Source: Nodosilinea sp. FACHB-141 (GTDB lineage Bacteria > Cyanobacteriota > Cyanobacteriia > Phormidesmidales > Phormidesmidaceae). From it: a DNA stretch of 64,000 nucleotides. The notes under the pieces were generated by a model that saw only the letters and a program-made list of their open reading frames with translations, did not search any database and was not told the DNA's origin. Both the position numbers and the translations under genes were made by a program. Positions 467 through 1,929 of this stretch are shown here, one piece after another (the first letter of the stretch is position 1; every line of letters starts with the position of its first letter). The stretch lies in the NCBI RefSeq assembly GCF_014696135.1, contig NZ_JACJPP010000013.1, positions 62,001 to 126,000 on the forward strand, given 5' to 3'.

Positions 467-775
467 CTAGAAGCCGGTGCGCCGGTAGTTGCCACCATTG
501 CCGCCGCCAGCGCCACTGCTACTGCGAGCGTCATCGCGGGGGCGAGCTTTGTTCACCCGCAGTTCACGGCCCATCCACTCAGCTCCATCGAGGGATTCGA
601 TGATGGTGTCTTCCTGAGCTTCGGCGGCCATATCCACAAAGGCAAAGCCTCGGGGACGACCGGTTTCGCGATCGGTGGGCAGGCTAACCCGCTTGACTTC
701 GCCATATTCTGCAAACACCCGCTCTAAATCTTCGCGAGTGACATCGTAGGACAAGTTACCAACATAGAGTGACAT
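467..775 (-). CDS. rbp: RRM-type RNA-binding protein (cyanobacterial Rbp family)
   Basis: A 102-residue single-RRM protein. RNP2 (LYVGNL) is at residues 3-8 and RNP1 (RGFAFVDM) at 42-49. A short Gly/Ser/Asn-rich tail runs from about residue 84 to the end (GAGGGNGGNYRRTGF). This architecture, one RRM plus a short Gly-rich tail, is typical of cyanobacterial Rbp proteins, many of which are cold-induced and bind U-rich RNA. The 5' flank up to 942 is AT-rich and has no gene, leaving room for a long leader such as cold-regulated rbp genes often carry; that last point is inference. A terminator follows the gene. The family is certain; which paralogue is not. Confidence 0.92.
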   Translation of the reverse strand: MSLYVGNLSYDVTREDLERVFAEYGEVKRVSLPTDRETGRPRGFAFVDMAAEAQEDTIIESLDGAEWMGRELRVNKARPRDDARSSSGAGGGNGGNYRRTGF

Positions 776-942: not shown

Positions 943-1176
943 TTAATTGTCGTATATCAAGCCTTCGGGCGCTTCAGGATTGTCTTCTAGATATTGGTCA
1001 AAGCCGGTTTTCTTAGGGATCTGATGCTGGTGCGAAACCTCGGCTCGCATCTCTTCCACCACGTCCCAGGCGGCAGCGGCTTCGGCAGAGGTTTCGCCCT
1101 TTTCGGCGGTGATTTGATGGGCGTAGTCGATTGCTTTTTGCAGCTCGTCTTGGAAGTCCTTGCTATCAACGCTCAT
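943..1176 (-). CDS. CP12-family protein without cysteines
   Basis: A 77-residue protein matching CP12 along most of its length. The core AWDVVEEM is at residues 36-43, followed by RAEVSHQ, and the C-terminal block YLEDNPEAPEGLIYDN ends the protein. CP12 is the disordered linker that joins GAPDH and phosphoribulokinase when its cysteine pairs are oxidised. This copy has no cysteine at all: the N-terminal site before the core reads AEAAAAWD, and the C-terminal pair is replaced by Leu and Gly. The start ATG at 1174-1176 is preceded on the minus strand by AGAGGAGAAC, a good ribosome binding site. It is monocistronic. It may still bind one partner through the conserved core or tail, but cannot act as the classical disulphide switch. 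The family call is secure; the role is open. Confidence 0.85.
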   Translation of the reverse strand: MSVDSKDFQDELQKAIDYAHQITAEKGETSAEAAAAWDVVEEMRAEVSHQHQIPKKTGFDQYLEDNPEAPEGLIYDN

Positions 1177-1302: not shown

Positions 1303-1929
1303 TCAGTGCTCAAACACCCCCTGGTACAGGAGCAGGTCGAGGGCGACGAAGGTAGGCAAACAGCTAAAACAATCCTGCGCTAACTCCCACCGGCCCTCGC
1401 GCTTGAGCATGGCAGTCAGGGTTTGGTGAATGCTGTGCAGGTAGCGCACGTCATTGGCGGCGTAGCGCAGCTGCTCGTCGGAAAGATTCATAGCATTGCC
1501 CCAGTCAGAGCTTTGGGCGGTTTTGTCGAGTTCGATGCCCTCTAACTCTTTGACCAGCTCTTTAAGGCCGTGGCGAGGGCTATAGGTGCGGCTCAGTTTG
1601 CTAGCGATTTTGCTGCAAAACACCGGGGCCACGGTAATGCCCAGGTTGTGCTTGAGGGTGGCCAAATCGAACCGAGCAAAGTGAAACAGCTTGAGAATGT
1701 CTGGGGCTTCTAGCAGCTCTTTAAGTAGGGGCGCTTCTTTTTGGCCGAGTTCGATGCGCACTACCGATACATAGCCGTCAGCGTCAGAGAGCTGCACTAA
1801 GCAGAGGCGATCGCGCTGGGGCAGTAGACCCATGGTCTCGGTGTCACAGGCGATCGCGCTGGCCTGCCGATAGCGATCCAACAAGTCGGGGGTGAGGTCG
1901 CGATCGCAGATTTCAAAACCGTCGGCCAT
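1303..1929 (-). CDS. rnd: RNase D-like 3'-5' exonuclease
   Basis: A 208-residue protein of the DEDD exonuclease superfamily. Exo I is CDTETMGLL with acidic residues at about 29 and 31. Exo II lies around FHFARFDLATL, and Exo III is YAANDVRYLHSIH near residue 150, giving the DEDDy Tyr. It is about the length of the catalytic domain alone and lacks the HRDC domains of E. coli RNase D, as is usual for short cyanobacterial and plant-type homologues. The likely job is 3' trimming of structured RNA. No operon partner is evident: the next gene upstream is a decayed DUF29 gene. Confidence 0.85.
   Translation of the reverse strand: MADGFEICDRDLTPDLLDRYRQASAIACDTETMGLLPQRDRLCLVQLSDADGYVSVVRIELGQKEAPLLKELLEAPDILKLFHFARFDLATLKHNLGITVAPVFCSKIASKLSRTYSPRHGLKELVKELEGIELDKTAQSSDWGNAMNLSDEQLRYAANDVRYLHSIHQTLTAMLKREGRWELAQDCFSCLPTFVALDLLLYQGVFEH

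Follow-up and report, generated by a model that had tools for sequence, protein, structure and literature searches.

What is left for CP12 to do once it has lost every one of its cysteines? Textbooks present CP12 as the disulphide switch of the Calvin cycle, which brakes carbon fixation in the dark, and the question is raised by a protein encoded in the window, by which we mean the whole 64,000-nucleotide stretch of Nodosilinea sp. FACHB-141 DNA analysed here. Its reading frame (Table 1) opens with ATG and runs for 77 residues with no cysteine codon. There is little doubt about the family, since Pfam PF02672 is matched at 80.6 bits against a cut-off of 22.7 (E 1.4e-22), over residues 9-76 of the protein and positions 2-70 of the 70 in the profile; this is the sole Pfam match, CBS domains are absent, and no NCBIfam family was matched. 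The AWD_VEE core that serves as a criterion of the CP12 family reads AWDVVEEM here, with residue 39 alone varying among 18 members of its clade, and both the N- and C-terminal cysteine pairs of the canonical protein are missing (Thr23 and Ala33; Leu63 and Gly72). The initial annotation had called this a CP12 with an intact core and both disulphide pairs lost, and it was right on each of these points; a cysteine-free CP12 is indeed what we observe.

Table 1. Features of the cysteine-free CP12 locus, in window coordinates
Feature	Position	Strand	Basis
Cysteine-free CP12 paralogue, 77 aa	943..1176	(-)	ORF and Pfam match; conserved in 25/26 genomes of the genus (among the matches listed)
AWDVVEEM core, residues 36-43	1048..1071	(-)	W37, D38, V40, E41, E42 and M43 invariant in the 18-row clade alignment
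Cys1 site, Thr23 (ACC)	1108..1110	(-)	Alignment to T. elongatus CP12
Cys2 site, Ala33 (GCC)	1078..1080	(-)	Alignment to T. elongatus CP12
Cys3 site, Leu63 (CTA)	988..990	(-)	Alignment to T. elongatus CP12
Cys4 site, Gly72 (GGC), derived from Ala	961..963	(-)	Alignment to T. elongatus CP12
Gene for an RNase D-like 3'-5' exonuclease, adjoining CP12 on its upstream side	1303..1929	(-)	PF01612; same order in 18/25 cysteine-free loci
RRM RNA-binding protein gene, downstream of CP12	467..775	(-)	PF00076; follows CP12 in 16 of these 18

Is the fold still there? AlphaFold2 models of 18 clade members suggest that it is, with helices predicted at residues 6-26 and 31-50 in a block of pLDDT 85-90 and a C-terminal part at 55-69, and the genome's canonical CP12, modelled in the same manner, gives the same hairpin at pLDDT 86-91 and a tail at 61-79. 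The best Foldseek matches in the PDB are to T. elongatus CP12 (E 1.2e-3, TM 0.56-0.59, with a poor overall rmsd), none reaching an E value of 0.001 or better, and against CBS-CP12 the hairpin superposes at 0.8-1.4 Å over 40-46 columns. As predicted, the hairpin needs no cysteines, AlphaFold being blind to redox state and formation in solution being a separate matter. On the GAPDH side, residues Y62, E64, P67, A69, E71 and Y75 are invariant in the same 18 members.

How old, then, is the loss, and did it happen all at once? CP12 was found in all 63 genomes of the order that were searched, and the analysis covered 80 stretches around the listed CP12 matches of the order, together with 20 more from the class. 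An orthologue of the window gene is present, among the matches listed, in 25 of the 26 genomes of the genus, the one without being G040 (87% complete), and not one of these 25 copies contains a cysteine. Orthologues of the CP12-N form, in which the N-terminal pair is present and the C-terminal pair absent, occur in 9 of the family's 37 other genomes and, in a different family, in the single genome G213. A profile of the clade gave 34 matches at 144-160 bits across 388 genomes of the class before scores dropped to 110 (among the matches listed), the 35th member (G030) lying outside that sample; CP12 copy numbers per genome are lower bounds, again among the matches listed, and the class may hold further cysteine-free CP12s. 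Named records at 19 clade loci belong to Nodosilinea, Leptolyngbya, Phormidium, Tildeniella and unclassified filamentous cyanobacteria.

Site by site, the cysteines went in steps. Both C-terminal cysteines are missing in 35/35 clade members, with Leu or Val throughout at the Cys3 site and, at Cys4, Ala (9) or Ser (1) in the CP12-N sequences and Gly (24) or Ala (1) in the cysteine-free ones. The Cys1 and Cys2 sites are both cysteine in 10/10 CP12-N sequences; in the cysteine-free copies the former is Thr (24) or Ser (1) and the latter Ala (25/25). Because the CP12-N sisters retain only the N-terminal pair, the C-terminal pair was the first to be lost. The cysteine-free sequences form one clade (SH-aLRT 87 for its 24 different rows, 100 for all 34 clade rows; 98/86 in a more careful tree of 74 columns with 4 cysteine-free rows), which fits a single loss, so that the N-terminal pair seems, from these sequences, to have disappeared once, at the base of that clade. 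Non-overlapping differences between the cysteine-free and CP12-N forms fall at positions 13, 16, 21, 23, 33, 76 and 77, five of the seven being in the N-terminal half, the part seen in solved complexes as the PRK-binding hairpin (PMC10253348). The same comparison corrects a detail: the initial annotation remarked that the GGC codon of Gly72 is one base from TGC, which is true but misleading, since the sister sites are Ala or Ser and the first-branching cysteine-free sequence (L031) also has Ala, so that Gly came from Ala.

Selection on the protein is strong. Pooled dN/dS for the cysteine-free copies is 0.054, with 0.068 for the N-terminal part, 0.035 for the core and 0.057 for the C-terminal part, these being pairwise Nei-Gojobori values for related pairs at which synonymous differences are near 0.6 and partly saturated; the protein is under strong purifying selection along its full length, the tail not excepted. 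Every one of the 35 members is 77 codons long and free of stops. A pseudogene is thus rejected by dN/dS, and sequencing error, chance or recent loss by the agreement of 25/26 genus genomes (among the matches listed). A phage origin was also considered; none of the 30 pattern matches obtained in one scan of viral contigs was confirmed as a relative. A cysteine codon in close relatives, or a Ka/Ks near one, would have spoken against the initial annotation, and we found instead 25/25 copies in the genus without cysteine and the low ratio just given. A conserved cysteine-free clade with its AWD core, and a canonical CP12 elsewhere in the genome, both of which it had thought worth looking for, do exist. 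Its interpretation therefore stands in part: family, core, lost pairs and clade hold good, whereas the loss is old and stepwise and the class already had a name, CP12-0.

The window gene is not the only one of its family in the genome, which has three CP12 genes: a four-cysteine copy on contig C11 (C11:85058-85267), the window copy on C13 and a third on C20. That third copy (L003:1495-1866, (-)) is of the CP12-C type minus Cys4, its four sites reading S-V-C-A with Cys3 alone kept, and with Cys4 gone its C-terminal disulphide is likewise impossible. A single domain cysteine at Cys3, in an ending like YC.ENP.A.EAR.YDV, also marks the CP12-C-like copies L040, L042, L049, L054, L057, L058, L061 and L066 of the family, in which loss of Cys4 only is a recurrent event. 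For the enzymes that CP12 binds, the genome gave three matches to GAPDH and two to the PRK family, one of the latter being strong. Around the window gene itself, the order RNase D-like, CP12, RRM (467-1929, (-)) is kept in 16/25 cysteine-free loci, and these neighbours pointed to no mechanism.

A less expected context emerges in the relatives. In 12 of the 35 genomes (7/25 cysteine-free and 5/10 CP12-N loci) the paralogue lies within the operon of the bidirectional [NiFe]-hydrogenase (hox), where hoxU, hoxY, CP12 and hoxH follow one another in this order on the same strand (at L030 the contig stops short of hoxH). Between the stop codon of hoxY and the start of CP12 there are 20-24 nt in 10 of the 12 loci, 50 in L031 and 157 in L005. 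The CP12-N gene of G213 (L103) is among those inside a hox operon; it is the nearest tree relative of the cysteine-free clade, its HoxH matches at 87-88%, and perhaps the operon was transferred. A HoxH query from one such locus found matches in 26/63 genomes of the order. Of the genomes that carry the paralogue, 35 in all, 15 gave a HoxH match of at least 81% (with CP12 in the operon in 12), three gave only a second HoxH type (69-71%) and 17 gave none. The window's gene is not between hoxY and hoxH and stands outside any hox operon; indeed, its genome yielded no NiFe large subunit, whether by family or by HoxH protein search, and no HoxY with a query that finds HoxY in 3/4 other genomes. The gene has outlived the hydrogenase.

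Is CP12 found in hox loci at large? HoxH matches occur in 127/388 genomes of the class, and we surveyed 80 of the 128 matches, each read over some 7 kb if the contig was long enough, 10 further matches being already covered. Our own CP12 profile matched something on the hoxH strand in 30/80 loci, and in 24 of these the CP12 domain is above the Pfam cut-off, 21 with two CBS stretches and three stand-alone. Twenty-one of the 24 lie between hoxY and hoxH, spanning 10 families by group code, with 10 of them in one family (f32), and the other three (L129, L149, L169) lie downstream of hoxH; with a few CP12 genes in 5-6 Mb, we estimate that chance would give well under one such case among 80. Six loci (L189, L198, L199, L203, L204, L205) encode CBS proteins whose CP12 match is below the cut-off or absent and are not counted in the 24. 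In five of them (all but L199) the protein is 185-190 aa long, is encoded upstream of hoxH and has an end similar to the first half of CP12 alone, perhaps a CBS-CP12 in the course of losing its CP12 domain. The remaining 50/80 loci have no CP12 domain, and the Nodularia hox cluster is likewise described as free of additional ORFs (PMC3610870).

What the hox-locus proteins share is the state of their C-terminal pair, which is intact in 0/36 (0/21 CBS-CP12, 0/3 stand-alone and 0/12 of the window clade). The loss is not special to hox, however, since CBS-CP12 elsewhere keeps this pair in just 5/22. The tabulation behind these counts omits the six loci named above and a second weak match in L206, and its 18 canonical and 7 CP12-C rows were hand-picked, the canonical ones being known beforehand to have four cysteines. 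A thioredoxin-like motif lies near 7/22 of the non-hox CBS loci; the original CBS-CP12 paper reportedly placed these genes in several neighbourhoods, thioredoxin A most often. The tree sets the window clade apart from the hox CBS clade, and the three stand-alone hox CP12s have their place elsewhere, scattered positions that make more than one recruitment into hox likely, with the caution that 74 columns impose. Given the shared slot and a CAEKG stretch, we had considered that the window clade might descend from a hox CBS-CP12 that shed its CBS domains where it stood, and rejected this on the same tree, in which the clade is closer to canonical and TrxA-neighbour CP12 (91/77), 74 columns again not being decisive. 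One further CBS-CP12 in the hox slot, upstream of hoxH (L207, genome G116), has no cysteine in its CP12 domain, and there have thus been at least two cysteine losses among hox-locus CP12s.

Our search of the literature on CP12 with hox or hydrogenase, with fermentation and with gene neighbourhood brought up no account of CP12 in a hox operon save a single entry in a table, 'CBS domain; CP12 (24)', from a paper about the gene neighbourhoods of succinate dehydrogenase and [NiFe]-hydrogenase (PMC12727194), so that the link between CBS-CP12 and hydrogenase is probably already published. The same search found no mention of a stand-alone CP12-N or cysteine-free CP12 in the hox slot.

What might such a protein do? 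We lean, at somewhat short of even confidence, towards a thiol-independent CP12 that acts on phosphoribulokinase (PRK), once tied to the expression of the hydrogenase and freed from it afterwards. Published work assigns PRK binding to the two N-terminal helices of CP12 and GAPDH binding to the C-terminal part (PMC10253348), so the intact core and hairpin would let the window protein act on PRK, and oxidation would no longer produce the other half, which a disulphide folds on GAPDH in the canonical protein. With no thiols it would have no disulphides of its own through which thioredoxin could release it, and would hold or protect PRK; control would be left to expression, to the redox state of PRK itself or to metabolites. 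A plausible setting is a cell that needs carbon fixation switched off although its thiols are still reduced, as in the dark micro-oxic state in which hox is used, and Hox is reported to be active in dark fermentative or micro-oxic cells (PMC9195167, PMC11368403). When the N-terminal pair alone is lost the ternary complex still forms in Synechococcus 7942 and Galdieria, and CBS-CP12, to which most CP12s in the hox slot belong, reportedly acts on PRK with no such complex (both PMC9406205). From the changes in the hairpin relative to CP12-N, the lack of a GAPDH-side pair in the hox set and the action of CBS-CP12 on PRK, we infer a PRK-directed function, whether inhibition or protection. In Synechocystis, deletions of hoxH and of cp12 are both reported to fail on glucose, in conditions that differ (PMC9514657, PMC9623430). 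Against this reading, a Synechocystis CP12 in which serine replaces all four cysteines gives much the same glucose use and NAD(P)H re-oxidation as the deletion (PMC9623430), so that absence of cysteines alone gives no constitutive GAPDH brake; reduced algal CP12 is reported to be without stable structure (PMC9406205); and 23/35 clade members stand outside the hox operon, as the 50/80 other hox loci stand without CP12.

There are, of course, other ways to read the same facts. The window protein might be a thiol-independent partner or competitor of canonical CP12, binding PRK or GAPDH weakly and either protecting the enzymes or keeping the disulphide-forming CP12 off them in a dominant-negative manner, an idea which we think unlikely, even though every genus genome checked has at least one further CP12 gene, PRK is reportedly stabilised by reduced CP12 (PMC9406205) and the six GAPDH-side residues are invariant; in the work described in PMC9623430 the Cys-to-Ser CP12 was tested only in the absence of wild-type CP12. 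The conserved tail could also mean that GAPDH is still bound, by a C-terminal part shaped through packing in place of a disulphide. That is improbable in our estimation, given that the tail is predicted less well than the canonical one, that both C-terminal cysteines are missing throughout the clade, and that Cys-to-Ser changes in the C-terminal pair are reported to abolish GAPDH-linked phenotypes in Synechocystis (PMC9623430).

The neighbourhood invites a different thought, that the CP12 fold was newly used for an accessory protein of the bidirectional hydrogenase, with a role in assembly, HoxEFU-HoxYH coupling or nickel handling, and was kept for another partner once the hydrogenase was gone. 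The close spacing after hoxY, the 21/80 other hox loci with a different CP12 type in the same slot, the extra histidines (His51 in 34/35 members, His20 in 25/25 cysteine-free copies) and the copper and nickel affinities cited in connection with algal CP12 (PMC7281370) are all in keeping with this. We nevertheless hold it to be unlikely, because His51 occurs in 0/18 of the hox CBS-CP12s matched by pattern, most other hox loci do without a CP12 domain, and selection is still strong with 17/35 carriers lacking HoxH and three having the other type only; the survival of the gene without the hydrogenase suggests that its main target is another. The loss of HoxH in about half of the carriers, and the absence of the gene itself from the incomplete genome G040 (among the matches listed), might even suggest a relic on its way out, which the dN/dS near 0.05 and the constant, uninterrupted reading frame make barely credible.

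Returning to a PRK-directed, thiol-independent protein, a broader idea can be framed, if one rather unlikely as a whole. CP12 would have been recruited to the hox operon more than once (CBS-fused, stand-alone with one cysteine and stand-alone CP12-N), always without the disulphide that grips GAPDH, and would act as a second, thiol-blind brake on the Calvin cycle that is made alongside the hydrogenase and shuts PRK in dark, reduced cells, in which the CP12 governed by thioredoxin releases its hold; Nodosilinea would have dropped the remaining cysteines and kept the brake after the hydrogenase was gone. Whatever the mechanism, a selected lineage without cysteines means that the CP12 fold has a use independent of the switch, and nature has furnished a series (four cysteines, the N-terminal pair only, none) that makes a direct test possible. 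Through the several CP12 types that occur within the hox operon, control of the Calvin cycle is tied to hydrogen metabolism, and the role of the bidirectional hydrogenase is itself called unclear (PMC4517062).

How, finally, does the window protein compare with the CP12 types already known? Canonical CP12 (T. elongatus, 6GFO) has the same fold, length and core, with 43-44% identity in the structural match, and differs in its four redox cysteines and thioredoxin switch, both missing here. CBS-CP12 (Microcystis 5NMU and the hox-locus members) resembles it in bringing a CP12 domain into the hox operon, in having lost the C-terminal pair (in 21/21 hox-locus members) and in the closely superposing hairpin, but carries CBS domains, and the window protein lies outside the hox CBS-CP12 clade. 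The CP12-N class is matched exactly by the 10 sister sequences, from which the window protein differs by lacking the N-terminal pair too. That one or both pairs may be absent from CP12 is on record (PMC10253348), and the eight cyanobacterial classes given in PMC3906501, after Stanley et al. 2013, include CP12-0 and CP12-0-CBS, so the cysteine-free class as such is already published. Stand-alone, with the core and neither pair, the window protein has the features of CP12-0, a class defined by features and not by descent, and the account of the class in PMC3906501 mentions no history, selection or hox context of the kind described here. The printed example of CP12-0 comes from Leptolyngbya, a name borne by several Nodosilinea records, and may even be an orthologue of the window protein.
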